Assembly: GCA_014238945.1 (NCBI GenBank) | Contig: JABAAB010000044.1 | Location: 1-61,936 of the forward strand | DNA: 61,936 nucleotides | Direction of reading: 5' to 3' | Source of the DNA: Lysobacterales bacterium | Lineage (GTDB): Bacteria > Pseudomonadota > Gammaproteobacteria > Xanthomonadales > SZUA-36 | Program-made: the position numbers and the translations under genes | Notes under the pieces: model-generated | Databases searched by the model: none | What the model saw: the letters and a program-made list of their open reading frames with translations, nothing else | Told to the model about the DNA's origin: nothing | Part shown: piece after piece, positions 5,634 to 30,140 of the stretch | Position numbering within the stretch: the stretch's first letter is position 1 | How the letters are laid out: every line of letters starts with the position of its first letter

Positions 5634-5897
5634 AGGTCCCAGACGGTGAACAGTGCCGCATCGGCTATCGTGGTGGCAACCGAATCAGTGAAAGCGCATT
5701 GATTTAGGGACCTCATCCCCCGGGTGTTGAAGAAACAGACGTCCTGACCCGGGACTGGCCATCAACACCGGCGATCTCTTTGATCGCAATGCTTCAATTT
5801 CAAGCAACATCGAAAAATTATCAGTGCTGTCGAAATCCAGCAATAAACAACCGGTGCTATCCCTAATTATGAAGTTCCCTAATTATGGCAAAACAGC
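5634..5897. promoter_or_regulatory. Leader of the acs-Mo hydroxylase-demethylase operon with a possible regulator site
   Basis: This 264-base gap lies in front of the six-gene operon starting at 5898. It contains ACATCGAAAA at 5807-5816 and TGTCGAAA at 5828-5835, two similar TCGAA-centred elements 20 bases apart on the same face of the helix. The second copy matches the core of the repeated motif next to the AraC-type regulator (21196-21229). The match is shorter here, so the link is suggestive only. No clear -35/-10 pair could be assigned. Confidence 0.35.
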
Positions 5898-8024
5898 ATG
5901 GTGAATACCCATCAGCACAGACTGTCCCGGCTGTTTTGTCCTGGTAGTATCGCCTTCATCGGTGGCACCATCGCCGAGATGGCGATCCGGCGTTCCGTGG
6001 AAATTGGTTACCGCGGTGACATTTGGCCGGTCCATCCAACCCGCAAAACCATGGAAGGCTTCGACTGTTATCGCAGTATCGCCGAATTGCCTTCAGTTCC
6101 CGATGCCGCCCATATTGGGGTCAACCGTGAATTGACCATCGACATGGTCAGGACCCTGTCGGAAGCCGGATCGGGGGGATGTGTTTGCTACGCTGCAGGA
6201 TTTGGCGAAATGGGATCGCAGGGACAACAGCTGGAGCAACAACTGGTCGAGGCCGCAGGTGATATGCCCCTGATTGGCCCCAACACATTTGGCTACCTGA
6301 ATTTCCTGGATCGCTGTGCCCTGTGGCCGTATGTGTTTGGGTCTGAGCCGGTGGAAAAGGGGGTCGCGTTCATATCGCAAAGTGGCAACATTGCGATGAA
6401 CGTAACCATGAATTTACGTTCGGTGAATTTCACCCACGTGATTGGAACCGGTAACCAGACAGTGTTGGGACCAGGAGATTACCTGGATGCCCTGCTCGAA
6501 GACGAACGGATCAGTGCCATCGGTATGTACATTGAGGGTATAGACAATATCGATCATTTCTGCCAGGCCGCGGCACAGGCGATGCGCCAAGCCATTCCCA
6601 TCGTGGTGCTCAAGGTGGGCAAAACGGCTGCAAGTGCCCGCCAGTCGAGCACCCACACCAGTTCATTAACCGGTTCCGATGCACTGCACGATGCCCTGTT
6701 CCAACGCCTGGGCATCATCCGCGTGGATTCGCTCAACGGTATGCTGGAAACGCTCAAGATCCTTGACCAGGCAGACCGGTTGAAAGGGCACAACATTGTC
6801 AGTCTGTCCTGTTCCGGTGGTGAGGCGTCCATCATGGCGGATCTCGGTGATGCATACGGTCTCGATCTGCAGCCGTTCAGCGACGCCCAGACGGCGGACT
6901 TGAATGCCCAGTTCGAAAACTATGTCACCGTTTCCAATCCGTTTGATTACAACACCGAGATCTGGGGGGACGGAGCTGCCCAGGAACGCTGTTTCACATT
7001 GGCCATGTCGGGGCATCACGATGCCGCCTTGCTGGTATACGATCATCCCAGCGTCGAGGACGAAGCACTTGCCGTCGAGGTCGACGAATGGACGGTCACG
7101 TTACAGGCATTCGCGGCAGCACATAAAAACACAGGCATGCCGGCATTTGTCATCAGCACGATCAGCGAGTTGCTGCCGGAACAAGCACGTGAGTACGCAA
7201 TGGCAAATGGTGTGGTGCCGCTGCAGGGCTTTGAAGATGGCCTGCTCGCCTATTCCAGGGCGGCCGCCTATCATGTCTTTCGCAAATACTGCTCGGGATC
7301 TGTTGTTTTGCCTCGTTCCTTTTCCCAGCGCAAACAGGAACATTCCGGTGTCGAAAACCTGGATGAATGGGAAAGCAAGCAGCGCCTGGAAAGGTACGGG
7401 CTGACCGTCCCCGGAGGAAAACTGACCACGGCGGATGATGCCATCATTGCTGCAGACGACCTGGGTTATCCCGTTGTACTCAAAGCGGTCGGGACATCAT
7501 TTCTGCACAAGTCGGAACTTGGCGCCGTAAAAACAGGACTGACCTGCTCCGGGGAGGTCGGGCACGCCCTTGACGACATCATCAATTCCGTCACCCACCA
7601 GGCCGGCAATGAAAGAGCACTGCATGCGGACAACTTTCTCGTCGAGCGTATGATCACCGGAGCCGTTGCTGAATTGATCATCGGCATCAAGCGAGACCGG
7701 CAGTTTGGGCCGGCACTGGTAATTGGTGCGGGTGGAGTGCTAGTCGAAATAGTTAAAGACAGCATCAGCCTGCTGCTGCCGGCCACCCGGGAAGAAGTTG
7801 CGCGTGCACTTGATTCCCTGATGGTTTCCAGACTACTGAAGGGCTACCGGGGCAGACCGGCGGGGGATATTGAAGCCTGTGTTGATGCCATCCTCAACAT
7901 AGCCGCCTTCGCACAAGACCACTGGGATTCATTGCGTGAACTGGATGTCAATCCACTGATGGTGCTTCCCCGCGGCCAGGGTGTAGTGGCCGCAGATGCA
8001 CTGCTGGTTTTTGACCTACAATAA
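5898..8024 (+). CDS. Acyl-CoA synthetase, NDP-forming type (CoA-binding plus ATP-grasp)
   Basis: The 708-residue protein has the acetate-CoA ligase (ADP-forming) fused architecture: an N-terminal CoA-binding Rossmann domain (about 10-130), a succinyl-CoA-synthetase-like domain with GPNTFGYLNF, ISQSGNIA and HTSSLTGSDALHDALFQ (about 130-460), and a C-terminal ATP-grasp domain (about 480-708, GYPVVLKAVGTSFLHKSE and a GAGGVLVEI loop). It would activate a carboxylic acid to its CoA thioester in the cytoplasm, or run the reverse reaction to make ATP. It is the first gene of a tight operon, 5 bases before a molybdenum hydroxylase. This suggests it activates the acid produced by that enzyme, or that the two act on successive intermediates of one catabolic route. 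Acyl specificity is not readable. Confidence 0.88.
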   Translation: MVNTHQHRLSRLFCPGSIAFIGGTIAEMAIRRSVEIGYRGDIWPVHPTRKTMEGFDCYRSIAELPSVPDAAHIGVNRELTIDMVRTLSEAGSGGCVCYAAGFGEMGSQGQQLEQQLVEAAGDMPLIGPNTFGYLNFLDRCALWPYVFGSEPVEKGVAFISQSGNIAMNVTMNLRSVNFTHVIGTGNQTVLGPGDYLDALLEDERISAIGMYIEGIDNIDHFCQAAAQAMRQAIPIVVLKVGKTAASARQSSTHTSSLTGSDALHDALFQRLGIIRVDSLNGMLETLKILDQADRLKGHNIVSLSCSGGEASIMADLGDAYGLDLQPFSDAQTADLNAQFENYVTVSNPFDYNTEIWGDGAAQERCFTLAMSGHHDAALLVYDHPSVEDEALAVEVDEWTVTLQAFAAAHKNTGMPAFVISTISELLPEQAREYAMANGVVPLQGFEDGLLAYSRAAAYHVFRKYCSGSVVLPRSFSQRKQEHSGVENLDEWESKQRLERYGLTVPGGKLTTADDAIIAADDLGYPVVLKAVGTSFLHKSELGAVKTGLTCSGEVGHALDDIINSVTHQAGNERALHADNFLVERMITGAVAELIIGIKRDRQFGPALVIGAGGVLVEIVKDSISLLLPATREEVARALDSLMVSRLLKGYRGRPAGDIEACVDAILNIAAFAQDHWDSLRELDVNPLMVLPRGQGVVAADALLVFDLQ

Positions 8025-8029
8025 GTCCC

Positions 8030-8908
8030 ATGAATCACCCTGACTACATCGCTGCTGAATCGATCCAACAGGCGCTGCACCTGAAACAGGTCCACGGTGA
8101 AGATGCCCATGTGGTTGCCGGCGGTACGGATTTAATCCTGAGAATGCGCGATGAAATCCTGGCACCGGAACTGTTGATCGATTTGCGCAAAATTTCACTG
8201 GACCGTATTTCCAAGCACGAAGGTGGTATGCAATTGGGTGCCTATGTGCAGATTGCACAACTGCTTGCCCACCCCGTCATCAAAGAAACTTACCCGGCAC
8301 TGGCGGAGGCCTGCAGACAGTTCGCCGGTCCGCCGATCCGCAACCGTGGCACCCTCGGCGGCAACATTATCAACGCCTCACCGGCCGCTGACCTGCTGCC
8401 ACCGCTGATGGCCTACGATGCCAGCCTGGTACTGGAATCAATCAGCGGTCAGCGTGAAATGCCACTGGACCAGTTTCTGCAGGGCCCGGGTCAAACCAGA
8501 CTGGCGCCGAATGAGTTGCTGACACGGATCATGTTGCCGCAGATACTGGCAAACAGCGCAACATCATTCATCAAGCTCGGACACAGACGCTCCATGGCCA
8601 TCGCCATCGTCAACGTATGTACTCGCATCTCACTGGCGAAGGACGGCAGTGTCGAACAGGCTCGTGTCGTTCTGGGATCGGTCGCCCCCACAGTGATACG
8701 ATCACAAGAATCGGAAGCCCGGCTCAAGGGGCAATTACTCTCAGAGGATTTAATCGAAGATTGCGCCCGGCTGGCTGCTGATGACGCCACACCCATTTCC
8801 GATGTGCGTGCCAGCAGCGAATACCGCAAACGGATGGTGCGGGTGCTGGTACGGCGTGCTTTGACGGCCAACCAGAGCGAACTGTCGGGGGGAATTGCGG
8901 GTGCCTGA
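8030..8908 (+). CDS. Molybdenum hydroxylase FAD subunit (CoxM/XdhB-like)
   Basis: The 292-residue protein is the medium, FAD-binding subunit of a xanthine dehydrogenase-family enzyme. The two FAD loops are visible: VVAGGTDLILRMR near residue 30 and GTLGGNIINASPAADLLP near residue 110. The C-terminal CO-dehydrogenase flavoprotein domain follows. It passes electrons from the iron-sulfur subunit to an acceptor. It starts 5 bases after the acyl-CoA synthetase and its end overlaps the next gene, typical of translational coupling in a three-subunit complex (M-S-L order). Length is normal for the family. Confidence 0.92.
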   Translation: MNHPDYIAAESIQQALHLKQVHGEDAHVVAGGTDLILRMRDEILAPELLIDLRKISLDRISKHEGGMQLGAYVQIAQLLAHPVIKETYPALAEACRQFAGPPIRNRGTLGGNIINASPAADLLPPLMAYDASLVLESISGQREMPLDQFLQGPGQTRLAPNELLTRIMLPQILANSATSFIKLGHRRSMAIAIVNVCTRISLAKDGSVEQARVVLGSVAPTVIRSQESEARLKGQLLSEDLIEDCARLAADDATPISDVRASSEYRKRMVRVLVRRALTANQSELSGGIAGA

Positions 8909-9416
8909 AATCAACATGCGCATCACGGTCAACGGACGTCAACGCGATGTCAGTAGCGAACCCGTCAAAACCCTGCTTCATGTGCTGCGCGAGGACCTTG
9001 GCCTGACGGGAACCAAGGACGGCTGCAGCAGCGGAGATTGTGGTGCCTGTACTGTTATGCTGGATGGCCGGGTGGTCAACTCCTGCATGGTGATGGTTGC
9101 ACAGGCAGACGGCGCCTCGGTTGTAACCGTTGAAGGCATAGCCACCGGCGGTCAGCCAGCAGAGGTTTTGCATCCTTTGCAGAAAGCCTTCTCGCAATGC
9201 TGGTCTTTTCAATGTGGATTCTGCACACAGGGTATGCTGGTGTCATGTTATGACCTGCTGCAGACCAATGACAATCCATCCCGTGAGGATATTCTGACCG
9301 CAATCGCCGGTAATTTTTGCCGCTGTACCGGTTACCAGGCCGTGGTCACTGCCGTTCAACAGGCGGCCGCGGAAATCCGTACGTCAGACGCCGGGGCACA
9401 AAATGAGCGCGCCTGA
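8901..9416 (+). CDS. Molybdenum hydroxylase [2Fe-2S] subunit (CoxS/XdhC-like)
   Basis: This is the small subunit, with two [2Fe-2S] clusters. The plant-ferredoxin-type motif is C-S-S-G-D-C-G-A-C...C and the second motif is CGFCTQGM...CRCTGY, both complete. It relays electrons between the molybdenum and FAD subunits in the cytoplasm. Three starts are possible in frame: TTG 8895, GTG 8901 and ATG 8916. I prefer GTG 8901 because a GGGGGG-type ribosome binding site ends about 8 bases before it; this overlaps the FAD-subunit gene by 8 bases. The 3' end overlaps the large-subunit gene by 14 bases. Confidence 0.92.
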   Translation: MPEINMRITVNGRQRDVSSEPVKTLLHVLREDLGLTGTKDGCSSGDCGACTVMLDGRVVNSCMVMVAQADGASVVTVEGIATGGQPAEVLHPLQKAFSQCWSFQCGFCTQGMLVSCYDLLQTNDNPSREDILTAIAGNFCRCTGYQAVVTAVQQAAAEIRTSDAGAQNERA

Positions 9417-11676
9417 AACCGGCATCGTCGGACGGTGGACCAGTTCTCCGGGCGCAACCGATATCGTCACCGGCCGCGCACGCTATTGTCCTGATATCCA
9501 GTTGCCCGGGATGCTGACCGGAAAACTGTTGTACAGCCCCCATCCCCGTGCACGGATCAGGGACATAAATGTCAGCGAGGCACAGCAGATGCCGGGAGTT
9601 CACGCCGTGATTACCCACGCTGACATACCCGGTGAAAACAGCTACCTGTATGCATCACCAGACCAGCCGATACTGGCGATCGACGAAGTCCGGTTCCAGG
9701 GTGATGCCGTGGCCGCCGTTGCTGCCGTGGATGAAGATACCGCGCTGGCAGCACTGCGGGCGATCAAGGTCGACTATGAGGTTCTTGAAGGAATCTTTGA
9801 TCCACTGGAAGCCATGCAAGCGGATGCAGACCAGGTCGTTACCGGCGAGGAAAATGTAATGCTCGGCATGACCTTTCGCAGCGGTGATGTCGCATCTGCG
9901 ATGGCCTCGGCCGATGTCATCATAGAAAACACCTACCGCACCCAATGGGCCGAGCACGCTTTCCTGGAAACGGAAGGCAGTGTCGCAAGAATGGAAGAAG
10001 GGGGCGGTATCACCGTCTGGTCCTCGTGCCAGGCCCCGCACCGCGACCGGATGCAAGTGGCCAGGGCACTGGGTCTGCCAGAGAGCAGTGTCCGCGTGAT
10101 CACCCCGTATATCGGCGGAGCATTTGGCGGTAAGGACGAAGCTCATGTTCAGATGCACGCAGCCCTGCTGGCATTTACTGCGCAACGACCGGTCAAACTG
10201 ATCCGTGGCCGCAGGGAATCCATGCTGACGCATGTAAAACGTCATCCCATCATGGTTGAGTGCACCACGGCAGCTGACAGCAGTGGCCTCATCCTGGCGG
10301 TCAAGGCCCGCGCCATTGGAGACGCAGGACCCTATACCAACGCCTCACACGAGGTGATGAACAAGTTCGGTGAATTCATCGGTGGGCCTTACAAGGTCCA
10401 AAACCTGGAAGTGGAAAAAATCGCAGTTCGAACCAATAATCCGATATGCGGTGCCTTCCGCGGGTTTGGCGCACCGCAGGCTGCCTTTGTGTATGAATGC
10501 CAGATGGACGAAATCGCTCGCAAACTGGGTTTGGATCCATTGGAAATCCGTCTGCGCAACGGGGTAGATACGGGTACACAGTTGTGTACCGGTGTGGTGG
10601 TTCGTGACGGTGACGCCATGAAAGCATCACTGCGCAAGGCAGCTCAGGTCACCAATTGGAAAAACCGTGACCAGATGAACAAGCGACCCGCGCCACACCT
10701 CCGTCGTGGATGGGGAATGGCCACAATACTCAAAGGTGCCGGTATGGGACGCGGGTTGGCAGATCACGCTGGCGTGCTGCTGGAAATGCATCGTGATGGA
10801 TCGGTGCTGCTCAACAGTGCGGCCGCGGATATGGGTCAGGGTATCACCACGGTGCTGGTACAACTGGCAGCCGAAAGACTCGGTGTCAAAGTTTCCGATG
10901 TGCGAATCAACCGGGCCGATACCGACAGGGCGCCAGATGCCGGTGCTTCCTGTGCCAGTCGCCAGGCCATGGTATCCGGTAACGCCGTATTGCTGGCAGC
11001 AGACGACATTCGCAAAACTCTGTTGACCCTGGCGGCCATGAAAACAAAGGTGGAGAGCGACCGCCTCGGCCTGCGGGACGGCCGACTGCTAATCGATGGC
11101 GAGCCAACTGATCTGACGGTTCAATTGCTTGCGGAACGGGCCAGCAACTGGGGCTACCCATTACAGGCACAGGGCCGCGCCCACCTGGAATACCCATCCG
11201 ATGCTCCCCGTGTACCCTATCGTTACAGCAGCGAGATCTTCCAGTTCTGTACCCAGGTTGCACAGGTGCTGGTGGACATTGAGACCGGCCAGGTCAGCGT
11301 GGAAAGACTGGTGGCAGTTCACGATGCCGGCAAGATGATCAATCCGGGTGGTGTCTATGGGCAGATCGAGGGAGGTGTGGCACAGGGTATCGGTTATGCG
11401 CTCAGTGAGGAACTGGTGGTTGAGAAGGGCCACACAATGAACCCGTCACTGGAAAATTATGTTATACCGATGGCGCTGGATTTACCGGAAATTGAAATGC
11501 ACGTGTTGGAGTTCCCCCAGGATGGTGCCGGTCCGATGGGTGCCAAGGGTGTTGCCGAGGCACCGATTATTCCAACCGCACCGGCCATTCGAAACGCCAT
11601 ACTGGATGCCACGGGAAAAACACTTCACCAACTCCCAATGAACGCGGAGCGGGTGCTGAAAGCCCTCCAGGACTGA
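9403..11676 (+). CDS. Molybdenum hydroxylase large subunit, molybdopterin-binding (XdhA/CoxL-like)
   Basis: The 757-residue protein carries the catalytic Mo-pyranopterin site. Visible landmarks are GGAFGGKDEAHVQ (about residue 240), the substrate-side loop CGAFRGFGAPQAA, QGITTVLVQLAAE, and the catalytic glutamate E719 in GAKGVAEAPI. The AYRCSFR signature of true CO dehydrogenase is absent, so CO oxidation is not the role. Members of this branch hydroxylate N-heterocycles or oxidise aldehydes. It sits between a CoA ligase and two N-demethylases, so an N-methylated heterocycle or an amino-aldehyde is a reasonable guess, but this is inference. It overlaps the [2Fe-2S] gene by 14 bases. A MoCo chaperone (XdhC/CoxF type) is not in the operon and would have to be encoded elsewhere. 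Confidence 0.9.
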   Translation: MSAPETGIVGRWTSSPGATDIVTGRARYCPDIQLPGMLTGKLLYSPHPRARIRDINVSEAQQMPGVHAVITHADIPGENSYLYASPDQPILAIDEVRFQGDAVAAVAAVDEDTALAALRAIKVDYEVLEGIFDPLEAMQADADQVVTGEENVMLGMTFRSGDVASAMASADVIIENTYRTQWAEHAFLETEGSVARMEEGGGITVWSSCQAPHRDRMQVARALGLPESSVRVITPYIGGAFGGKDEAHVQMHAALLAFTAQRPVKLIRGRRESMLTHVKRHPIMVECTTAADSSGLILAVKARAIGDAGPYTNASHEVMNKFGEFIGGPYKVQNLEVEKIAVRTNNPICGAFRGFGAPQAAFVYECQMDEIARKLGLDPLEIRLRNGVDTGTQLCTGVVVRDGDAMKASLRKAAQVTNWKNRDQMNKRPAPHLRRGWGMATILKGAGMGRGLADHAGVLLEMHRDGSVLLNSAAADMGQGITTVLVQLAAERLGVKVSDVRINRADTDRAPDAGASCASRQAMVSGNAVLLAADDIRKTLLTLAAMKTKVESDRLGLRDGRLLIDGEPTDLTVQLLAERASNWGYPLQAQGRAHLEYPSDAPRVPYRYSSEIFQFCTQVAQVLVDIETGQVSVERLVAVHDAGKMINPGGVYGQIEGGVAQGIGYALSEELVVEKGHTMNPSLENYVIPMALDLPEIEMHVLEFPQDGAGPMGAKGVAEAPIIPTAPAIRNAILDATGKTLHQLPMNAERVLKALQD

Positions 11677-11703
11677 CCCCAGGAACTGAAAAAGGAATCA
11701 TTT

Positions 11704-14127
11704 ATGCAAAGCCATGCCCGTATTGTCATCGTAGGTGGGGGAATCATGGGTGCCGGTTTGTTGTACCACCTGGCAGAAGAAGGCTGTACAGACGTCATGC
11801 TGATCGAGAAAGGAGAGCTGACTTCCGGGTCAACCTGGCATGCCGCAGGTCAGTGCCCGAGCCTGGTGGGTAATTACAGCATGGCCCAGATTCATCATCA
11901 CAGCAATACACTTTACCCCCGACTGGAAGAACTCACCGGTCAGTACGTCAGCTGGCATGCCTCGGGTGGTATCCGGCTTGCCCGTACAAAAGAGGACATA
12001 GACTGGTTTAATTTTATGCGTGGCATCGCCAGGAATATCGGCTTCAGGATGGAAATTATCGGCCCCGATGAGATCCGCAGACTCAATCCTTTCATGAACA
12101 CCGATGGTGTGTTGGCCGGTGCCTGGACCCTGGATGACGGCCACGCCGATCCCTCAGGTCTGTGTCAGGCCATGGCACGGGGTGCCAAAAACATGGGCGC
12201 GACCATCATTCGGCACAACCGCGTTACCGACATAAGGACCCTGCCGTCGGGTGAATGGGAGGTGGTCACCGAAAAAGGCAATGTCATTGCAGAAACTGTG
12301 GTCAATGCCGCGGGTTGTTTCGCACGCCAGGTAGCGCAGATGGCCGGTGTCGATGTGCCGATATTCAACATGGAACACCAATACATCGTCACCGGACCGG
12401 TACCGGAATTCATGGATCGCGACGAAGAGTTCCCGGTAATCCGGGATCCACATGCATCGGCCTATATCCGCCAGGAGCAAAAATCCGGGTTGATCGGTAT
12501 CTATGAACAGACCGGTTTGACCCAGGCCTGGGCCCCCACGGGCTTTCCCGACTGGGATTCGGACAGCGAACTGTTTCCCGACGACCTGGAGCGTCTGATG
12601 CCCTGGCTGGGACATGCCATGGAACGTATGCCGGTACTGGAAACGGCGGGCATCAAGCGTATCGTCAATGGTGCCATTCCCCATTCCGCCGACGGTCCGC
12701 CCATGCTGGGACCGGTGGGGGGTGTGAAAAACTTCTGGATGTGCTGTGGCTCGTCATTCGGTATTGCCCAGGGCGCGGGTTGTGGAAAATACCTGGCACA
12801 GTGGATGCTGTATGGCGATTCTGAAATCAATATGACCGGTTTGGACCCCCGCCGAATCGGCACCTACGCTGACCACAAGTATATGAATGCCAAGGGTTTC
12901 CAGGATTATGGCATGACCTACTCCACGCCGTTGCCCGGAGAGGAACTGCCCGCGGGCCGGCCGTCGCGTACCAGCCCCCTGTACCACAGGCTGAAACAAC
13001 AGGGCGCTGTCCACACTGAGACCTTTGGCTGGGAGCGGCCCAAGTGGTTTTCCCTGGACGGCCGCGAAGAGCAATACAGTTTCCGGCGTAACAATGTTTT
13101 TGACGTGGTCGCTGAAGAATGCCGCTGTGTCAGGGAACAAGTTGGTCTGCTGGACCTGTCCGGCTTTGCCAAGTACGACATCAACGGAGCCGATGCCCGG
13201 ACATTTCTTGACCGGATATGCGCAAACCGCATGCCTGTCAAAGATGGTGGCGTCGTGCTGACCCACATCCTGTCTGAAAATGGCAGGATCCTGGCAGAAA
13301 TGACGATTACCCGCCTGGCGCACGATCGATATTACGCCCTCTCTGCAGCATCAGCAGAACAGCGGGACATGGATCACCTGCAGCGGGGAGCACTGGAACA
13401 CGAGGATCTGGACATCGTCAATATCAGTGACGACCTGGGCGTCCTGGTACTGGCCGGTCCTCATTCACGGGCAGTACTGGCAAAACTGACCGATGCCGAT
13501 CTGGGCAACACGGAATTTCCCTGGCTCAATGGCAGGGAAATCACAGTTGCCGGTATTCCACTGCGGGCCCTGCGGGTCAATTATGTCGGTGAGTTGGGCT
13601 GGGAACTCCACCCTGCAATGGAAAACATGGAGTTACTTTATGATGCCCTGTGGCAGGCAGGTGAGGAATTTGGTATCGCGAATTTTGGTCTGTACGCGGT
13701 CAACAGCCTGCGGATAGAAAAAGCCTACCGCGGCTGGGGTGCTGAATTGACCAACGAAGTGACCATGATTGAGGCCGATATGGGGCGCTTTATCAAATTT
13801 GACAAATCAGGTTTTGTAGGTCGTGAAGCGAGTCTCAAGAGTCAGTCTGACGGCCCCTCGATCAAGCTGGTTTACTTTGAGATCGATTCCGGTGATTCCG
13901 ATCTGCGTGGCAGTGAACCCATATTTGCAGGTAACGAAGCGATCGGTGTCACTACCTCCGGTGGTTATGGCCACCTGGTTCAAAAAAGCCTGGGTTTCGG
14001 CTATGTTGATCCACCCTGGTCAGACCCCGGTACAGAATTCGAAATTGAGTTGCTTGGAGAGCGCTTCACCGCTAAAGTACTGAACGCTCCGGTATATGAC
14101 CCGGCCAACCATCGTTTGAAGGCCTGA
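11704..14127 (+). CDS. FAD-dependent N-demethylase with GcvT domain (dimethylglycine/sarcosine dehydrogenase family), copy 1
   Basis: The 807-residue protein has an N-terminal DAO-type FAD domain (dinucleotide loop IVIVGGGIMGAG, residues 7-18; STWHAAG with H46, the histidine expected to hold FAD covalently in this family). A C-terminal folate-binding GcvT domain follows (from about 430; LRVNYVGELGWELHP and AVNSLRIEKAYRGWG). Such enzymes oxidise an N-methyl group and pass the formaldehyde-level C1 unit to tetrahydrofolate, giving 5,10-methylene-THF. It lies 27 bases after the Mo hydroxylase and 4 bases before a paralogue. Full length for the family. Dimethylglycine is the textbook substrate, but the operon context leaves other N-methyl amines open. 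Confidence 0.88.
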   Translation: MQSHARIVIVGGGIMGAGLLYHLAEEGCTDVMLIEKGELTSGSTWHAAGQCPSLVGNYSMAQIHHHSNTLYPRLEELTGQYVSWHASGGIRLARTKEDIDWFNFMRGIARNIGFRMEIIGPDEIRRLNPFMNTDGVLAGAWTLDDGHADPSGLCQAMARGAKNMGATIIRHNRVTDIRTLPSGEWEVVTEKGNVIAETVVNAAGCFARQVAQMAGVDVPIFNMEHQYIVTGPVPEFMDRDEEFPVIRDPHASAYIRQEQKSGLIGIYEQTGLTQAWAPTGFPDWDSDSELFPDDLERLMPWLGHAMERMPVLETAGIKRIVNGAIPHSADGPPMLGPVGGVKNFWMCCGSSFGIAQGAGCGKYLAQWMLYGDSEINMTGLDPRRIGTYADHKYMNAKGFQDYGMTYSTPLPGEELPAGRPSRTSPLYHRLKQQGAVHTETFGWERPKWFSLDGREEQYSFRRNNVFDVVAEECRCVREQVGLLDLSGFAKYDINGADARTFLDRICANRMPVKDGGVVLTHILSENGRILAEMTITRLAHDRYYALSAASAEQRDMDHLQRGALEHEDLDIVNISDDLGVLVLAGPHSRAVLAKLTDADLGNTEFPWLNGREITVAGIPLRALRVNYVGELGWELHPAMENMELLYDALWQAGEEFGIANFGLYAVNSLRIEKAYRGWGAELTNEVTMIEADMGRFIKFDKSGFVGREASLKSQSDGPSIKLVYFEIDSGDSDLRGSEPIFAGNEAIGVTTSGGYGHLVQKSLGFGYVDPPWSDPGTEFEIELLGERFTAKVLNAPVYDPANHRLKA

Positions 14128-14131
14128 ATCC

Positions 14132-16579
14132 ATGAACAAACCGCTCCCTGGCAACGCGAGTGTCATCATTATTGGTGGCGGTGTGGTCGGATGTTCCATC
14201 GCTTATCACCTGGCAAAACTGGGCTGGTCAGACGTGTTGTTACTGGAACGAAAACAGTTGACCAGTGGTACTACCTGGCACGCAGCCGGTCTGATCGGCC
14301 AACTGCGTGGGTCCATGAATATGACCCGCCTGGCACGTTACACACGGGAACTGTACCAGCAACTGGAATCGGAAACCGGACAGGCCACTGGCTACCGGCA
14401 GTGTGGCTCCCTGACCATTGCCACCAACATGGAGCGTTTCGAGGAACTCAAACGCAACGCCTCAATGGCGAAAGTATTTGGTCTGCAGGTTGATGAAATC
14501 AGCACGGCCGAGATCAAGGAGCGCTACCCGCTGATCGAGGACAGCGATGTTCTCGGTGGCATCCACATTCCCAGCGATGGTTATGGCAATGCCGTTGATA
14601 TTACCCAGGCGCTGGCAAAAAGCGCCCGCAGTGGCGGTGTGCGAATTGCCCAGGACACCCTGGTAACCGCCATCCGACATGATGGTAAAAAAGTAACCGG
14701 TGTCAGTACACACAGCGGAGACATCGATGCAGACCAGGTCGTCATTTGCGGGGGAATGTGGAGCAGGGACCTGGCGGCGACAGTAGGTGTCAACGTGCCA
14801 CTGCAAGCCTGCGAACATTACTACCTGTTGTTTGAGGGCATCGAGGGTCTCAACCCCGACCTTCCTGTACTCCGGGACTATGATGCCTGTACTTACTACA
14901 AGTACGACGCGGGTAAACTGATGGTGGGCGCGTTTGAACCCAAGTCAAAGCCATGGGGTATCGAAGGAATACCCGAGGACTTTTGTTTTGATGAAATCGC
15001 CGGTGATTTCGAACACATGGAACCGGTACTGCTGGGTGCCATGGATCGTATTCCGGCGCTCCAGGAAGCTGGCATACAGAAGTTCTTCTGCGGTCCTGAA
15101 AGCTTCACACCCGATGTACGTTACCACCTTGGCCGGGCACCTGAACTGCAGGGCTGTTTTGTTGCGGCGGGTATGAACTCCATTGGACTGCAATCGGCAG
15201 GCGGTATCGGCAAGGTGATGTCGGAATGGATCCGCGATGGCCATCCCCCTGCCGACCTGTGGGAGGTCGATGTACGTCGCAATATTCCCTTCCAGGGCAA
15301 CCGCAAATACCTGCGTGAACGGGTCACTGAAACACTGGGTCTTTTGTATGCCACACACTGGCCTTTTCGCCAGTACGAAACGGCCCGCGGTGTAAGGAAA
15401 TCACCGTTGTACGACCGCCTGGTAGCAAAAGGTGCGTGTCACGGCGAGGCCTTTGGCTGGGAACGACCCAACTGGTATGCACCGGATGGTGTGAAACCTG
15501 AATACCAATACAGTTACGGCCGCCAGAACTGGTTTGAGTATTCTGCCGTCGAACACCGGGCCGTACGCGAATCCGTGGGCTTGTTCGATCAGTCATCTTT
15601 TGCCAAGTTCCGTCTCGAAGGTGCTGATGCCATGAAGGTATTGAACCGTATCTGCGCCAACAATATCGACGTATCCCCGGGCAGGCTGGTTTATACGCAG
15701 TGGCTGAACGAGAAAGGCGGAATAGAGGCAGACCTGACGGTGACCCGACTGGCAGCAGACAGTTTCCTGGTTGTTACGGCGGCCGAGACCGAGGTGCGTG
15801 AATTCGACTGGCTCAAGACCCACATACCGGAAAACGCCCACTGCATATTGACCAACGTGACTTCGGGTATGGGGGTAATTTCCATCATGGGCCCACGTTC
15901 CAGGGACCTGCTGCAATCACTGACCCCGGCCGATATGTCCCACCAGGCATTTCCATTTGCCCACAGCCGGGAGATCGAACTGGGCTACGCGATGGTGCGT
16001 GCATCACGGATCACCTATGTAGGTGAACTGGGCTGGGAGTTGTACATTCCCACAGAGTTTACAACCGGTGTCTATGATGAAATCACCGCCGCGGGAGACC
16101 AATTCGGACTGGTCCATGCCGGCTACCATGCGCTCAATTCCCTGAGGATGGAGAAAGGCTACCGGCATTGGGGCCATGACATCACCGATGAAGACACGCC
16201 ACTGGAAGCCGGTCTTGGCTTTGCTGTAAAACTGGACAAACCGGGTGGATTTATCGGGCGCGACGCCCTGCTGGCACAAAAATCAACTGGACTGACAAGA
16301 CGGATGTTGCAATTCAGGTTGGCTGACCCGGAACCCCTGCTCTATCACAATGAACCGATCTGGCGCGAAGACCGGATCGTAGGGTACATCAGTTCGGGTG
16401 CATACGGCCATAGCCTGGGTGCCTGTATTGGACTCGGCTATGTAGAGTGTGCTGAAAACGAAGACATCGGCCAGCTTACCGGTGCCGAATACGAAATTGA
16501 GGTCGCAGGCATCCGCTATCCGGCCACAGTTTCACTCAAACCCATGTATGACGCGACCAGCAGCCGTATTCGCAGTTAG
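14132..16579 (+). CDS. FAD-dependent N-demethylase with GcvT domain, copy 2
   Basis: The 815-residue protein has the same build as the preceding gene: FAD loop VIIIGGGVVG (11-20), TTWHAAGL with H50, and a C-terminal GcvT domain with ITYVGELGWELYIP and ALNSLRMEKGYRHWG. The two are clearly paralogous but diverged; for example, copy 1 has WHAAGQCPSL where this one has WHAAGLIGQL. This fits specialisation for successive steps such as dimethylglycine to sarcosine and sarcosine to glycine. It starts 4 bases after copy 1 and is the last gene of the operon. The next gene is convergent after an 84-base gap in which I see no strong terminator hairpin. Confidence 0.88.
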   Translation: MNKPLPGNASVIIIGGGVVGCSIAYHLAKLGWSDVLLLERKQLTSGTTWHAAGLIGQLRGSMNMTRLARYTRELYQQLESETGQATGYRQCGSLTIATNMERFEELKRNASMAKVFGLQVDEISTAEIKERYPLIEDSDVLGGIHIPSDGYGNAVDITQALAKSARSGGVRIAQDTLVTAIRHDGKKVTGVSTHSGDIDADQVVICGGMWSRDLAATVGVNVPLQACEHYYLLFEGIEGLNPDLPVLRDYDACTYYKYDAGKLMVGAFEPKSKPWGIEGIPEDFCFDEIAGDFEHMEPVLLGAMDRIPALQEAGIQKFFCGPESFTPDVRYHLGRAPELQGCFVAAGMNSIGLQSAGGIGKVMSEWIRDGHPPADLWEVDVRRNIPFQGNRKYLRERVTETLGLLYATHWPFRQYETARGVRKSPLYDRLVAKGACHGEAFGWERPNWYAPDGVKPEYQYSYGRQNWFEYSAVEHRAVRESVGLFDQSSFAKFRLEGADAMKVLNRICANNIDVSPGRLVYTQWLNEKGGIEADLTVTRLAADSFLVVTAAETEVREFDWLKTHIPENAHCILTNVTSGMGVISIMGPRSRDLLQSLTPADMSHQAFPFAHSREIELGYAMVRASRITYVGELGWELYIPTEFTTGVYDEITAAGDQFGLVHAGYHALNSLRMEKGYRHWGHDITDEDTPLEAGLGFAVKLDKPGGFIGRDALLAQKSTGLTRRMLQFRLADPEPLLYHNEPIWREDRIVGYISSGAYGHSLGACIGLGYVECAENEDIGQLTGAEYEIEVAGIRYPATVSLKPMYDATSSRIRS

Positions 16580-16663
16580 CTGCATGTACTGGTTCAACAG
16601 AACAGCCTGAAAATGTCCGGCACGAACTTTGTGTTCAATCCATCCATCTGCATTTGAACAGGG

Positions 16664-17026
16664 TTATGCGTCCTGCAGTTGGCCGGTTTCCAATTCGACC
16701 ATGGGCAATAAACGTGAATCCTCCAGTGCAGCACTGCGATGACCCATGCCGGCCAGGTATCCCGGATTTGACGCAAATGCCAAAAAATCAGACAACGATC
16801 GCTGGCGTACCAACATGACCATATCCCAGTGTTCATCGGCAGGGCCGATCAGGTAATGGCCTGCCGTGCCGAGAAATATAACTTCACCGCCACTTTCCTG
16901 TAGAAATGGTGTGGTGTGCTCCATGTATATTTTGTAGGCTTCCCTCCCGGAAATCGGATCCAATGGTTTCAATTCCGGACTATCAGAATAATCAGCAATA
17001 TCCCGGAATAGCAATAAATTGAGCAT
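16664..17026 (-). CDS. DUF1330-like small protein
   Basis: The 120-residue cytoplasmic protein resembles the DUF1330/dimeric alpha-beta barrel group. The pattern YKIYMEHTTPFLQESGGEVIFLGTAGHYLIGP followed by WDMVMLVRQRSLSDFLAFASNP fits the usual 'value, then damage or bias of the estimate' core of these ferredoxin-fold proteins, here read only from overall similarity. Biochemical function is unknown for most of the family. It is on the same strand as, and 120 bases downstream of, the MttB-like gene, so it may be cotranscribed with it. Confidence 0.7.
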   Translation of the reverse strand: MLNLLLFRDIADYSDSPELKPLDPISGREAYKIYMEHTTPFLQESGGEVIFLGTAGHYLIGPADEHWDMVMLVRQRSLSDFLAFASNPGYLAGMGHRSAALEDSRLLPMVELETGQLQDA

Positions 17027-17133
17027 GACTACTTCCCCCTGGATATCTTGTGAGAATAATGCGGCTTCGGCTTCCCGGGTGGGTTGCAGATAATTCGTGG
17101 TCAGTTCACACGGACGCTCAGATTCGTTGCTTT

Positions 17134-17158
17134 GGCAAAGTGTGATTCACACTTTGCC
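17134..17158. repeat. Perfect 25-base palindrome over the mttB-like stop codon
   Basis: The arms GGCAAAGTGTGA (17134-17145) and TCACACTTTGCC (17147-17158) are exact reverse complements around a single central T. The right arm contains the stop codon of the MttB-family gene. No T-tract follows on either strand, so it is not a standard intrinsic terminator. It could be a 3'-end RNA hairpin for stability, or a binding site for a dimeric protein; the core TGTGA-TCACA recalls CRP half sites but lacks the six-base spacer. Confidence 0.75.
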
Positions 17159-18691
17159 CATGGCTTGAGGCGACAGAAAAATCGGGAATTCGGCACGAAC
17201 TTTCGCGTCCACTTCGTTACTGACATGTGTTGGGAAGTGATCGCTGAGTATTTCATCCCTGCGAATAACGGCTTTTTCCACCAATACCGGTCTCTCATTT
17301 TCCATCCACTCATTCGGACTGGAACGGTCACTGAATTCCGGATATATATATTCACTCTGCATGACCTTCAGTGTCTGCTCGGAACCCAGGTAGTGTCCCT
17401 CGGGACCCAGGCAAACGTCCCTGATGGTGTCAAAACTGAGGGTATCCTCATTCACCTCGATTCCACGGGTCATGCGCATGATTGCGCCCAGCACATCATT
17501 GTCCAGCAGCAGGCTCTCCGGACAGGCTCCCAGCAGGCTGGCGTACATTCCTGCTGACTCATAGACGATATTTGCTCCGGACAAAGCCGCAGCCAAAGCG
17601 GTTGACGCGCGTTCTGCCCCGGCCTGGAAATCCGGAGTCTTGGAATCCGACATACCGCAGGCTGTACCAAACGGTAATCCAAAGTGATTACCCATCTGGG
17701 CACAGGCCGCAGACAACAGGCCCTGCTCCGGGGACCCACCAGACATGGCCCCGGTCCGCAGATCAGATATGAATGGCCAGGCACCCAGTATCGCCGGCGC
17801 ACCCGGTTTGATCGCGTTCACATAGACCAGGCCACCGAGACATTCGGCCCAGGCCTGGGATGCAGCACCCGCCAGGCAAGCTGGCGTGGTGGCTCCCGCC
17901 TGCCCCGCAGACAGCAGCAACACCGGCATACCGCCCTCAACGGCGACCCTCAGGCACTCCAGTGCATCACCAGTAAATTTCATTGGCGGGACCACGAAAC
18001 AATTTGACTGGCTGACAAACGGCCGCGCGCGCCAGCGATCTTCCCCGCCCGCAATCAGATGCAGCATGCGCAAACTTTTCTCAAGGTGATCTGCATTGGT
18101 CCAGCTTGAGCCAATGTGTTTGGATGTACCCGTCACACAACAATACAAAGTATTTAAATCCATGGCATAGTTGTCTGCTATATCCCTGAGCACACACATA
18201 CGCTGGAACATGTGGATGTGTTCACAACAGTCTGCGATACGTGCCATGTTATACAGATCAGAGGCGGTAGAGTCCCGGTAACTGTTACTTTGGCTGTCAG
18301 CAATCATCACCGCCGCGCCAGCAGTTGCAAAATGTACTTTTTGTTCCTGAACCTGCAGATCCTGAGCCGGGTTCTGCGCATAAAGGACCAGTTTCTTCTG
18401 AGCCTGTTGCAGGGTGTTTTCCACTACCGGTTGCGGTATGCGTAATCGACCGTCATCGCCAAGTTCCGCGCCCACTGCTGTACAGGTCTCAATACAATGT
18501 GGTGTCGGGTCACCAAATCCGACTTCGGCCAGTATCCTGAATATATTTTTTTCAATGAGCCCTATAGCATCCGTATCCAGTGGTTTGAATTGCCCTCCGG
18601 TCTCACCCGGGTGGACCGGCTTGACATCTTCTGCCAACGGCGCGGCTCGCTGCGCCACTCTCGCCCGTCTTCCTCCAGATCTTCTTGCCAT
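17147..18691 (-). CDS. MttB-family (non-pyrrolysine) methyltransferase
   Basis: The 514-residue protein belongs to the trimethylamine methyltransferase superfamily: the basic N-terminus MARRSGGRRARV, a TIM-barrel with NYAMDLNTLYCCVTGTSKH, GGSPEQGLLSAACAQ and GMSDSKTPDFQAGAE, and the usual length. There is no internal amber codon, so it is the glycine betaine/carnitine-type branch rather than the pyrrolysine enzyme. Characterised relatives move a methyl group from a quaternary amine to a corrinoid protein. No corrinoid protein or activator gene is in the window. I chose ATG 18691, with an AGGTG ribosome site about 9 bases before it, over GTG 18703. It is divergent from the BKACE gene with only 47 bases between starts, so both are probably controlled together. 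Confidence 0.88.
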   Translation of the reverse strand: MARRSGGRRARVAQRAAPLAEDVKPVHPGETGGQFKPLDTDAIGLIEKNIFRILAEVGFGDPTPHCIETCTAVGAELGDDGRLRIPQPVVENTLQQAQKKLVLYAQNPAQDLQVQEQKVHFATAGAAVMIADSQSNSYRDSTASDLYNMARIADCCEHIHMFQRMCVLRDIADNYAMDLNTLYCCVTGTSKHIGSSWTNADHLEKSLRMLHLIAGGEDRWRARPFVSQSNCFVVPPMKFTGDALECLRVAVEGGMPVLLLSAGQAGATTPACLAGAASQAWAECLGGLVYVNAIKPGAPAILGAWPFISDLRTGAMSGGSPEQGLLSAACAQMGNHFGLPFGTACGMSDSKTPDFQAGAERASTALAAALSGANIVYESAGMYASLLGACPESLLLDNDVLGAIMRMTRGIEVNEDTLSFDTIRDVCLGPEGHYLGSEQTLKVMQSEYIYPEFSDRSSPNEWMENERPVLVEKAVIRRDEILSDHFPTHVSNEVDAKVRAEFPIFLSPQAMGKV

Positions 18692-18738
18692 GATAATTTT
18701 CACCTGCTCTGTGGTTCTCTCTGAGGCATAATAGGCAA

Positions 18739-19629
18739 ATGAACAGGAATATCATAGTCAGTTGTGCAGTAACAGGTGCCGGAGACAGTGTCGGGAAACA
18801 CCCGGCCATACCCGTCACACCCACAGAAATCGCCGAGGCAGCTATCGATGCGGCCAGAGCCGGTGCCGCCATTGTGCATATTCATGTGCGTGATCCGGAT
18901 ACCGGGAAGGGCTGCAGAAGACCTGATCTTTTCAGAGAGGTGGTCGATCGAATTCGTGACAATGAAACGGATGTCGTCCTTAATCTGACCACGGGTATGG
19001 GCGGAGATCTGTTTTTCGGTCCGGATGAAGACACCATGAATTTTACCGGGAACACGGACTGTGTCGGGCAGACGGAACGTATGATCCATGTTGAAGAACT
19101 GTTGCCCGAGATATGTTCGCTGGACTGTGGTTCATTCAATTATGCGGAAGGAAGTTATGTCTATGTCTCAACACCCGGAATGCTGCGTATCGGTGCAAAA
19201 CGATTGCAAGCCATCGGTGTAAAACCGGAACTGGAGGTGTTTGATCTCGGACATATTGCATTCGCAAAGCAATTGCTTGCGGAAGGATTGCTCGACGATC
19301 CGCCACTGTTCCAGGTTTGCCTTGGTATTCGCTGGGCGGCCGAGGCGGACACACGGAATTTTCTAACCATGGTGGACCAGTTGCCCGCCGGGAGTAACTG
19401 GGCAGGATTCGGTGTGGGTGCGATGGAGATGCCCATGGTGGCGCAGGCTGCGCTGTTGGGGGGTAATGTGCGGGTTGGACTGGAAGATAACCTGTATCTT
19501 GAAAGGGGTGTTTTCGCCTCCAATGCCCAATTGGTAGAGCGGGCCTGCAACATCCTGCAGCTAATGGGTTGTTCTATCCAGACACCGGCGCAGGCAAGAG
19601 AGACTCTTGGCCTGACCAAGCACTTTTGA
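18739..19629 (+). CDS. Beta-keto acid cleavage enzyme (BKACE/DUF849 family)
   Basis: The 296-residue TIM-barrel protein has the BKACE metal site [14 protein letters not shown] (H47 and H49) and the late [11 protein letters not shown] segment carrying the third ligand region. BKACEs condense a beta-keto acid with acetyl-CoA to give acetoacetate plus a new CoA thioester. The best fit to the context is the 3-dehydrocarnitine reaction, which yields betainyl-CoA: a thioesterase follows 27 bases later, a CdhR-like regulator lies beyond it, and an MttB-like methyltransferase is divergent. Pocket residues that set specificity cannot be judged by eye. No carnitine dehydrogenase is present in the window. 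Confidence 0.88.
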
Positions 19630-19656
19630 AATGAACTGCCGGCGCGGGAGACACCC

Positions 19657-20079
19657 ATGCTGATGGTAAGCAAAGCCGTGGCCCACCCGTGGATGTGTGA
19701 CGTACTTGGCCACCTGACCACCCGCTTCTATGTTGGCATGTTCGATGACGCCAGTTATCATTTTCTGTACACGGTCTTCAACTTCGTCGGTGCGAGTGAT
19801 GAGAAGGGCGAAAAGGCCATGGTCGATGTGCGCCACGTTATAGAGTATCTCGCCGAAGTTACCGCCGGAGACCTGCTGGAGATCAAGGCCTCATTGCTGA
19901 AAATTGGTTCCAAGTCCATCACGGTCCGCTACGAGATGAACAACCTGGGCAGAAACGAACTTGCCGCCACTTTTGAGTGTATTTATGTGCTCTTCGATAT
20001 GAAAGCACGCAAGGGACTTGTCCTCACGGATGATTTGAGGGCAATGGCCGTACAGCATCTGGACCCTTCCCCGCACTGA
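19657..20079 (+). CDS. Hotdog-fold acyl-CoA thioesterase (4HBT type)
   Basis: The 140-residue protein carries AHPWMCDVLGHLTTRFY followed by MFDDASYHF, a typical hotdog thioesterase start with the catalytic acidic residue in the helix region. It probably hydrolyses the CoA ester made by the adjacent BKACE, for example betainyl-CoA to glycine betaine. A GGGAG element sits about 8 bases before the ATG. The decayed N-terminus at 1785-1981 is a paralogue (HPWxCxVxGHL, FDD, VDVR all shared). It is convergent with the AraC-type regulator 14 bases downstream. Confidence 0.85.
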   Translation: MLMVSKAVAHPWMCDVLGHLTTRFYVGMFDDASYHFLYTVFNFVGASDEKGEKAMVDVRHVIEYLAEVTAGDLLEIKASLLKIGSKSITVRYEMNNLGRNELAATFECIYVLFDMKARKGLVLTDDLRAMAVQHLDPSPH

Positions 20080-20093
20080 GATGATACGCCCCG

Positions 20094-21149: not shown

Positions 21150-21195
21150 CCTCCTGGTGAAAATTGATTCGAGTAATACAGCAGCAAGAGCGTAC

Positions 21196-21275
21196 CATCT
21201 TTTCGACAGTCCCAGACATATTTTCGACACAATCCGCACCCACAGGCATGGCGAAATCCTTGTGTTAGTGTCGAA
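21196..21275. promoter_or_regulatory. Candidate operator: direct repeat CAT[C/A]TTTTCGACA, 21-bp period
   Basis: CATCTTTTCGACA (21196-21208) and CATATTTTCGACA (21217-21229) match at 12 of 13 positions and are offset by 21 bp, two helical turns. AraC-family proteins typically bind two direct half sites with this geometry. A third, inverted and shorter copy, TGTCGAA, is at 21269-21275. The sites lie between the AraC-type regulator gene and the acyl-CoA dehydrogenase gene, so they could control either or both. Confidence 0.65.
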
Positions 21276-21346
21276 TATTCAAACCACCCTCACGGCTGAA
21301 TCTCTCATTATCTAAAATCACAGGCCAATACCAACCGGAGTACCTG

Positions 21347-30107: not shown

Positions 30108-30140
30108 TTCTTGGCCGGGATCAAATCAGGTGGAGCTGGT

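Follow-up and report, generated by a model that had tools for sequence, protein, structure and literature searches.

Two adjoining gene modules proposed for trimethylammonium acid catabolism in a Lysobacterales genome

Analysis of a 61,936-nucleotide stretch of DNA from the metagenome-derived genome of a Lysobacterales bacterium (hereafter, the window) points to two catabolic modules for trimethylammonium acids lying end to end, which together would convert gamma-butyrobetaine or a close analogue to carnitine, glycine betaine and, finally, glycine. We give this reading a probability of roughly two in three, and we infer every reaction and substrate in it from sequence. Among the genomes compared, the two modules are joined only in the genome that contains the window, and the run of six genes that spans their junction, taken for one functional unit in an earlier note on this DNA, is not a conserved unit.

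All six open reading frames were found on the + strand, as that note had described. They encode an NDP-forming acyl-CoA synthetase (ACS, 5898..8024; Pfam CoA_binding_2, Succ_CoA_lig and ATP-grasp_5), the FAD subunit (MoM, 8030..8908; FAD_binding_5 and CO_deh_flav_C), [2Fe-2S] subunit (MoS, 8895..9416; Fer2 and Fer2_2) and Moco subunit (MoL, 9403..11676; Ald_Xan_dh_C, MoCoBD_1 and MoCoBD_2) of a Mo hydroxylase, and two proteins resembling folate-linked dimethylglycine dehydrogenase (DGD1, 11704..14127) and dimethylglycine/sarcosine dehydrogenase (DGD2, 14132..16579), each with DAO, FAO_M, GCV_T and GCV_T_C domains. In gene order, the proteins in the open reading frame list are 708, 292, 173 (counted from TTG), 757, 807 and 815 aa long. 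The five junctions comprise a gap of 5 bases, an overlap of 14 (or 8), an overlap of 14, and gaps of 27 and 4 bases; the MoM/MoS overlap is 14 bases with the TTG start at 8895 and 8 bases with GTG at 8901, both codons being present. Thus, the open reading frames and start codons bear out the positions and spacing reported previously, and the domains bear out the enzyme classes, namely, an NDP-forming ligase, a three-subunit Mo enzyme and two FAD-GcvT proteins. None of the six proteins reaches a curated NCBIfam cut-off among the best 25 matches listed. The key motifs are intact, including GAFGGK and the GVAE glutamate (residue 719) in MoL, both [2Fe-2S] sets among the ten cysteines of MoS, and an FAD motif, WHAAG and GELGWEL in each of DGD1 and DGD2.

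The gene set extends beyond these six genes to position 22513. It continues with a small DUF1330-like protein (16664..17026, - strand; 22.1 bits, just under the Pfam cut-off of 23), an MTTB-superfamily methyltransferase (17147..18703, - strand; MTTB domain), a beta-keto acid cleavage enzyme (BKACE1, 18739..19629, + strand; BKACE domain), a 4HBT thioesterase (19657..20079, + strand; 4HBT_2), an AraC-family regulator with a DJ-1/PfpI domain (20094..21239, - strand; HTH_18 and DJ-1_PfpI) and an acyl-CoA dehydrogenase (ACAD, 21347..22513, + strand; acyl-CoA dehydrogenase domains). Scans of 5600-22600 yielded 13 promoter sites against 10.9 expected from shuffles and 11 terminator sites against 14.9 expected.

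Comparison of neighbourhoods separates the modules. Four relatives share the order ACS, three-subunit Mo enzyme, AraC regulator and ACAD, with 7-19 bases between MoL and the AraC gene, where the window carries an 8.4 kb segment (11677..20093; strand not applicable) that is missing there in all four. In two of the four (G024 and G406), most genes of this segment lie together on a different contig, in the order DGD1-DGD2-Rieske-BKACE-thioesterase on G024:C13 and DGD1-MTTB-BKACE-thioesterase on G406:C80 (gene calls in relatives were made with a custom ORF script, not a gene finder). The Rieske oxygenase in G024:C13 occupies the place of the window's MTTB gene; both families include betaine demethylases. 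Of the ten Mo loci whose contigs continue downstream, only the window shows the six-gene order, and in none of the other nine do the demethylases stand beside the ligase or Mo genes (locus L061, where the contig stops after the Mo gene, is outside the nine). The earlier note had held that habitual separation of the Mo hydroxylase or ligase from the demethylases would count against a single unit, and such separation is what the relatives display.

Module 2, encoded in the segment, appears to be a glycine betaine route in its own right. DGD1 matches rat dimethylglycine dehydrogenase with 651.6 bits over residues 4-804, and DGD2 matches dimethylglycine dehydrogenase along its full length with 508.1 bits. 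Given full-length FAD-DAO and GcvT domains and both FAD and folate motifs, the two can be classified by sequence as folate-linked dimethylglycine/sarcosine dehydrogenase-like proteins, and the same full-length matches sustain the prior prediction that the pair passes N-methyl groups to tetrahydrofolate. An orthologue of DGD2 (78%) is located directly 3' of DGD1 in G024:C13. The methyltransferase matches the MTTB family with 359 bits in an open frame of 518 codons with no in-frame amber codon, among solved structures it scores highest with a glycine betaine methyltransferase (219.1 bits), practically level with an unnamed putative methyltransferase (219.0 bits), and its orthologue (76%) lies beside DGD1 and BKACE in G406:C80; we propose that it is a glycine betaine methyltransferase of the MTTB superfamily without pyrrolysine, nearest to betaine enzymes. 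Characterised MTTB proteins require a partner corrinoid protein. No such partner was found within the window; B12-binding_2 frames of 239 aa (on contig C53, a candidate) and 320 aa are present elsewhere in the genome, as judged with a profile, PF02607, that is unspecific and matches 9 of 14 control genomes.

BKACE1 is 53-56% identical to the BKACE of three plasmid carnitine operons, and its orthologues (80-82%) are next to the DGD genes in G024 and G406. BKACE1 and the thioesterase are adjacent (18739-20079), and the thioesterase gene directly follows BKACE in G024, G406, G039 and G416. From this position, and from a weak match to the Rhizobium carnitine 3-dehydrogenase protein (25.5% over 141 aa), the thioesterase is proposed to be a betainyl-CoA hydrolase. 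For the DUF1330-like protein, a search of the two separate modules (L100 and L101) gave nothing at E <= 1e-3.

Module 1 resembles operons for the upstream half of such a route. ACS is 42-43% identical to the ligase encoded in plasmid operons of Thioclava, Palleronia and Rhizobium, alongside genes for acyl-CoA dehydrogenase, carnitinyl-CoA dehydratase, BKACE and carnitine 3-dehydrogenase, and ACAD is 52-55% identical to the dehydrogenase of the same three operons; no other candidate in the window or on C111, another contig of this genome, comes near these two in matching the plasmid-operon ligase and dehydrogenase. Orthologues of ACS in relatives are 60-69% identical and those of ACAD, in five relatives, 76-87%. 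By these comparisons, the CoA ligase and ACAD qualify as predicted orthologues of those in known gamma-butyrobetaine/carnitine operons, and we propose ACS as a CoA ligase for gamma-butyrobetaine or a similar acid and ACAD as a gamma-butyrobetainyl-CoA dehydrogenase. The regulator has the GATase-1-like AraC architecture shared by CdhR and GbdR, regulators of carnitine/betaine catabolism, as described in the accessible part of the source (PMC5806209).

Homologues of crotonobetainyl-CoA hydratase and carnitine dehydrogenase are encoded outside the window on C111, where a cluster comprises a CaiD-like hydratase (49-52% identical to its counterpart in the three plasmid operons), a carnitine dehydrogenase-like (CarDH) protein (39-40%), a BCCT transporter, an amidase, a CoA-transferase and a second BKACE, BKACE2, 58% alike to BKACE1. 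In G017, BKACE2, BCCT, amidase, CoA-transferase, CarDH, CaiD, ACS, the Mo genes, AraC and ACAD are all on one contig. For the homologues at locus L059, the top NCBIfam matches are crotonobetainyl-CoA hydratase, L-carnitine dehydrogenase and L-carnitine/gamma-butyrobetaine antiporter, all below cut-off; among the ten proteins of that search, only the general BCCT family model reached a cut-off and no equivalog model did. The C111 cluster also contains a second acyl-CoA dehydrogenase, an SDR protein, two further crotonases, an LLM oxidoreductase and an alpha/beta hydrolase. Plasmid homologues of C111 acyl-CoA dehydrogenase b, the amidase, the CoA-transferase and the LLM oxidoreductase occur in mixed contexts that indicate no substrate.

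In the proposed scheme, module 1 comprises ACS, the Mo enzyme, AraC and ACAD together with the hydratase, CarDH, transporter, amidase, CoA-transferase and BKACE2 encoded on C111. It would form the CoA ester of gamma-butyrobetaine or a close analogue, which would be desaturated and hydrated to give carnitine and then 3-dehydrocarnitine. BKACE1 would convert 3-dehydrocarnitine and acetyl-CoA to betainyl-CoA and acetoacetate, and the thioesterase would release glycine betaine. The MTTB enzyme would take off the first methyl group, and DGD1 and DGD2 would remove the next two, transferring the carbon to tetrahydrofolate. In the available portion of PMC12482172, P. aeruginosa and S. meliloti are described as converting carnitine to betaine by way of 3-dehydrocarnitine and betainyl-CoA. 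Several points argue against the scheme: ACS is only 42-43% identical to the plasmid ligases, none of the six genes reaches an NCBIfam equivalog cut-off, there are two BKACEs, several C111 enzymes are left unused, no corrinoid partner for the MTTB enzyme lies in the window, and neither the Mo enzyme nor the amidase has a counterpart in the three plasmid operons.

MoM, MoS and MoL have the hallmarks of, and are predicted to form, a xanthine-oxidase-family Mo hydroxylase with an FAD subunit, two [2Fe-2S] clusters and a Moco subunit with the catalytic Glu; E719 is conserved in all ten aligned MoL orthologues (L064 was left out of this alignment). Among solved structures, the nearest to MoL are 4-hydroxybenzoyl-CoA reductase alpha (346 bits, the best full-length match) and nicotinate dehydrogenase (296 + 193 bits across its two chains), both ahead of aldehyde oxidoreductases (266 bits or less, both stretches counted). 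The only cysteines of MoM are Cys 95, 197 and 245, and with just these three there is no room for an extra [4Fe-4S] cluster, which we take to be the mark of the FAD subunit of 4-hydroxybenzoyl-CoA reductase; that identity was rejected on this ground and on scores below the TIGR03194/03195 cut-offs. Aerobic CO dehydrogenase was likewise rejected, as the VAYRCSFR motif, presumably its active-site signature, is absent.

The MoL orthologues form a narrow group, with 11 loci and 68-79% identity to MoL of the window. Five of the 61 nearest genomes carry the Mo gene, and the same five carry BKACE2 beside the BCCT transporter and amidase (of the 11 contigs with a BKACE2 cluster, three are short), with the CoA-transferase present in four and not seen in G024; within these 61 genomes, Mo orthologues occur only together with the BCCT/amidase/BKACE2/carnitine cluster. 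At E <= 1e-160, orthologues were found in 2 of 369 genomes of the class (the window's own and G303) and in 1 of 398 genomes of the phylum (the window's own). In 8 of the 11 loci, the gene immediately 5' of the Mo genes, on their strand, is a CoA-activating one: ACS in six (window included) and a CoA-transferase in two. Most of these neighbours overlap or are separated by fewer than 10 bases (L049: 48 bases). The nearest plasmid homologues of the Mo enzyme are 35-38% identical, and the stretches displayed for the two inspected contain neither a ligase nor a BKACE nor a demethylase. Among the papers listed in a literature search for a Mo enzyme acting with butyrobetaine, which covered few subscription journals, none mentioned butyrobetaine. 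In L061 and L063, on contigs that look sponge- or host-derived, genes for FrhB-like, 2-oxoacid oxidoreductase and CofD proteins are found beside the Mo genes, hinting at an F420-linked branch; CofD (PF01933) is unspecific as a marker of F420 synthesis, also matching E. coli and 9 others of 14 control genomes.

On the best reading, the Mo enzyme is part of module 1, where we would favor, in this order, oxidation of a precursor, a trimethylammonium aldehyde, to the acid for activation, ring hydroxylation that would let the amidase open the lactam, and action on a CoA thioester. That it represents a new dedicated step of trimethylammonium-acid (betaine) catabolism, supplying gamma-butyrobetaine by conversion of an aldehyde or a ring compound or acting on a CoA thioester, is a tentative suggestion.

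Could all these enzymes instead serve one pathway for an N-methylated heterocycle, such as a pyridinium betaine, with Mo-dependent ring hydroxylation next to the nitrogen, lactam opening by the amidase, degradation of the chain by CoA-transferase or ligase and the acyl-CoA dehydrogenases, and N-demethylation by the FAD-GcvT proteins? The rank of nicotinate dehydrogenase and 4-hydroxybenzoyl-CoA reductase among the solved relatives of MoL is compatible with this, BCCT transport suits a betaine, and the amidase and CoA-transferase adjoin the Mo genes in L059, L060, L061 and L063 and share their contig in G017. The earlier note knew of no standard pathway combining such enzymes, a statement that needs a caveat: pAO1 nicotine catabolism already couples Mo hydroxylases with a demethylating oxidase, the FAD enzyme Mabo, according to the part of PMC6122326 available. 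We nevertheless consider a heterocycle pathway unlikely, given that the demethylases are apart from the Mo genes in every other locus seen, travel with BKACE and thioesterase and match dimethylglycine dehydrogenase, and that ACS, ACAD, CaiD and CarDH match carnitine/gamma-butyrobetaine operons devoid of a Mo enzyme. Hydroxylation, activation and demethylation of one compound, as previously envisaged, is a poor fit to the 11677-20093 segment, which resembles a self-contained glycine betaine route, and no gene was found that points to homarine or trigonelline, the substrates suggested, nor any such cluster among the papers listed in literature searches covering few subscription journals; these substrates are set aside for lack of support and are not disproved.

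Returning to the two-module scheme, its modules might be neighbours by chance, through a rearrangement that placed module 2 beside module 1 with no metabolic link. As this would predict, module 2 lies on contigs apart from module 1 in G024 and G406, and just one of the ten loci with downstream sequence has the modules joined. The junction carries no compositional scar (GC of 0.545 in 11677-20093 against 0.57 and 0.543 in the flanks) and no apparent mobile gene. However, across the 61 genomes, the Mo gene is present in 5, DGD1 in 6 and both in 4 (Fisher p = 1.4e-4, a value that ignores kinship and was computed after the data were seen), and the carnitine route is expected to end in betaine. DGD1 was counted at >=73% identity, leaving out G017, which carries the Mo gene, and G022 (E <= 1e-170 but 42%). 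Against the two-module scheme, co-occurrence of DGD1 with BKACE1 falls short of what it would suggest (3 shared of 6 and 6), with BKACE1 taken at >=64% (6 genomes), BKACE2 at 58-60% (5 genomes) and G418 (53%) left out, and in G003 DGD1 has no BKACE or thioesterase in the 19 kb covered. Because the modules co-occur across genomes, a metabolic link between them is likely and chance adjacency improbable. Overall, the interpretation in the earlier note is partly supported.

Least probable of all is a Mo enzyme that hydroxylates or reduces a CoA thioester, for example taking enoyl-CoA directly to 3-oxoacyl-CoA, a type of reaction that we know solely from 4-hydroxybenzoyl-CoA reductase: the upstream CoA-activating genes and the best full-length solved match favor it, but MoM lacks that reductase's extra cluster, an aldehyde-to-acid step ahead of activation predicts the same gene order, and the step would be redundant because the genomes also carry the CaiD-like hydratase and carnitine dehydrogenase-like protein.

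Gamma-butyrobetaine, carnitine and glycine betaine commonly serve as sources of nitrogen and one-carbon units. If the two-module scheme is correct, a gamma-butyrobetaine-to-glycine gene set that places the methyl groups on folate would allow such organisms to be spotted in metagenomes. The comparison also sets right a grouping that was plausible but mistaken, as adjacency in a single genome suggested a six-enzyme pathway where comparison across genomes gives two modules.

Among known systems, the aerobic gamma-butyrobetaine/carnitine operons of Rhodobacterales and rhizobia, on plasmids of Thioclava, Palleronia and Rhizobium laguerreae, share homologues of ACS, acyl-CoA dehydrogenase, carnitinyl-CoA dehydratase, BKACE and carnitine 3-dehydrogenase and, in Rhizobium, an AraC/GlxA regulator. 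Unlike these operons, the window's genome encodes its CaiD and CarDH homologues on a separate contig, has the thioesterase as a separate gene and a BCCT rather than an ABC transporter, and places a three-subunit Mo enzyme behind the ligase. In P. aeruginosa, betaine demethylation uses GbcAB, whereas the window has MTTB together with dimethylglycine dehydrogenase bearing a folate domain, and it has, in addition, a CoA ligase and an acyl-CoA dehydrogenase that would handle the deoxy acid. The P. aeruginosa carnitine-to-betaine route is otherwise similar, with carnitine dehydrogenase, BKACE, GATase-type AraC control and glycine betaine as the product, in the parts of PMC5806209 and PMC12482172 at hand. 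DGD1 and DGD2 share full-length domain order and motifs with dimethylglycine dehydrogenase and N,N-dimethylglycine oxidase (4PAB, 1PJ5), but are ~40% or less identical to them, judged by eye from alignments. The pAO1 pathway likewise contains both Mo hydroxylases and an FAD demethylase, but acts on nicotine, and the available part of its description mentions neither an NDP-forming ligase nor BKACE (PMC6122326). Nicotinate dehydrogenase and 4-hydroxybenzoyl-CoA reductase are the nearest solved relatives of MoL, which falls below every NCBIfam cut-off and is a single chain where nicotinate dehydrogenase has two.

The earlier note's description of the six open reading frames at 5898-16579, their families and their spacing was borne out by open reading frame listing and by domain and family profile searches; the window spans the entire contig C26, one of 126 in a 4.85-Mb assembly that is 98% complete. 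On their 3' side follow, in order, a DUF1330-like gene (-), an MTTB-family methyltransferase (-), a beta-keto acid cleavage enzyme (BKACE1, +), a 4HBT thioesterase (+), an AraC regulator with a DJ-1/PfpI domain (-) and an acyl-CoA dehydrogenase (ACAD, +), which is a quaternary-amine gene set and alters the reading of the six genes. Beyond this cluster lie two TPR-sulfotransferase fusion proteins and a TonB receptor (22510-24084, +; 24087-26099, -; 26203-28596, -), and homologues of both kinds likewise stand 3' of the cluster in genomes G017 and G406. At 28968-32476, a homoserine O-succinyltransferase adjoins an MTHFR-domain protein and a 475-aa frame without Pfam match, with a possible methionine or C1 function.

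Orthologues of the Moco subunit (MoL) were sought in one scan of genome contigs (nine loci from 16 stretches) and in whole genomes, yielding, once duplicates were removed, the window and ten others (11 distinct loci in all), with 68-79% identity to the window protein. The order acyl-CoA synthetase (ACS)-MoM-MoS-MoL-AraC(-)-ACAD(+) recurs in four, with MoL-to-AraC gaps of 19 (G024), 17 (G017), 10 (G410) and 7 bases (G406) versus 8.4 kb in the window; contigs of G017, G410 and G406 are identical to public contigs WVWV01000109.1, DAOWGA010000007.1 and CALDVW010000048.1, from the same family as the window genome. A CoA-activating gene immediately precedes MoM in 8/11 loci, namely ACS in the window, these four and L064, and a CoA-transferase in L061 and L063. 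Elsewhere, L059 carries ACS and ACAD at least 5 kb from the Mo genes, with genes for crotonobetainyl-CoA hydratase (CaiD-like) and carnitine dehydrogenase (CarDH-like) homologues, BCCT and BKACE in between; in L060, amidase and CoA-transferase genes follow the Mo genes; and the 22 kb of L058 covered contain none of these. Gene calling found demethylase genes at 0/10 other Mo loci, the L061 contig stopping after MoL. Two MAG contigs of gammaproteobacterial origin carry FrhB/FdhB-like, 2-oxoacid:ferredoxin oxidoreductase and CofD genes (L061 1-5707, L063 403-5222), joined in L061 by a CofE-like ligase, directly 5' of their amidase-CoA-transferase-Mo genes, a possible F420 link.

The first demethylase, DGD1, has relatives at 73-79% identity in G003, G024, G406, G410 and G417. 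Contig C13 of G024 carries DGD1 (75%), DGD2 (78%), a Rieske oxygenase, BKACE (80%) and thioesterase (70%), and C80 of G406 carries DGD1 (73%), MTTB(-) (76%), BKACE (81%) and thioesterase (53%); such a swap of Rieske and MTTB at one position is expected if this step takes the first methyl off glycine betaine. Among solved structures the Rieske protein scores highest against an unnamed ring-hydroxylating protein (231.6 bits), then against an enzyme deposited as 'Monoxygenase; demethylase' (204.6), with carnitine monooxygenase lower (125.3). G003 has no BKACE or thioesterase near DGD1 within the 19 kb covered, and the G410 and G417 contigs are short. BKACE-thioesterase pairs also lie beside a GcvT-domain protein (G416) and a TauD-family dioxygenase (G039 C5; L104 8240-10683), which could be a butyrobetaine hydroxylase route reaching the same point. 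Several more full-length FAD-GcvT paralogues, 36-48% identical to DGD1 or DGD2, occur on C126, C88, C64 and C30 of the window's genome, the one on C126 adjoining another MTTB gene.

On Thioclava, Palleronia and Rhizobium plasmids (3 of 474 matching records examined), ACS homologues lie among annotated acyl-CoA dehydrogenase, carnitinyl-CoA dehydratase, BKACE and carnitine 3-dehydrogenase genes, and pairwise matches to these operons are specific (420-430 bits for the window ACAD versus 109-129 for the other acyl-CoA dehydrogenase, on C111). That contig of the window's genome carries CaiD-like, CarDH-like, BCCT, amidase, CoA-transferase and second BKACE (BKACE2) genes; in G017, C111-type genes and the ACS-Mo-AraC-ACAD set share a single contig. 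C111 (L076) also holds, at 3428-9124, the second acyl-CoA dehydrogenase, an SDR, a crotonase, an alpha/beta hydrolase, an LLM oxidoreductase nearest to Mer/F420 models and another crotonase, an order kept in L060 and partly in G017. BCCT and amidase genes adjoin BKACE2 in 5/5 carriers, and CoA-transferase in 4/5. Among 61 relatives, the Mo enzyme (5) co-occurs with BKACE2 (5) in 5 (p = 1.7e-7), with DGD1 (6) in 4 (p = 1.4e-4) and with BKACE1 (6) in 3 (p = 0.005), and DGD1 with BKACE1 in 3 (p = 0.01), these p values being descriptive, as they ignore kinship and genome incompleteness (G410 77%, G024 83% complete).

From gene anatomy, neighbourhoods and intact motifs, we infer every step of the following pathway. 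ACS would form gamma-butyrobetainyl-CoA, to be desaturated by ACAD and hydrated by the CaiD-like protein; the CarDH-like protein would oxidize carnitine, BKACE would cleave 3-dehydrocarnitine with acetyl-CoA, and the thioesterase would release free betaine. MTTB would then remove the first methyl, and DGD1 and DGD2 would pass the second and third to folate. A homologue such as delta-valerobetaine may be the substrate instead.

The Mo enzyme is a complete xanthine-oxidase-family enzyme that falls under all NCBIfam cut-offs; its nearest solved structures are nicotinate dehydrogenase and 4-hydroxybenzoyl-CoA reductase, and motif checks found neither the CO dehydrogenase motif nor, in the FAD subunit, cysteines for an extra cluster. 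Its position behind a CoA-activating gene is compatible with acid formation or CoA-ester use, and its amidase and CoA-transferase neighbours with a lactam route; all three fit, with no firm choice among them. We found no literature connecting the catabolism of butyrobetaine or carnitine with a Mo hydroxylase, which is weak evidence given limited literature coverage. The route from carnitine through 3-dehydrocarnitine and betainyl-CoA to betaine is known in other bacteria, according to passages of PMC12482172, and passages of PMC5806209 tie carnitine and betaine control together through CdhR/GbdR. The component parts are of known kinds, and what varies is their pairing with a Mo enzyme.
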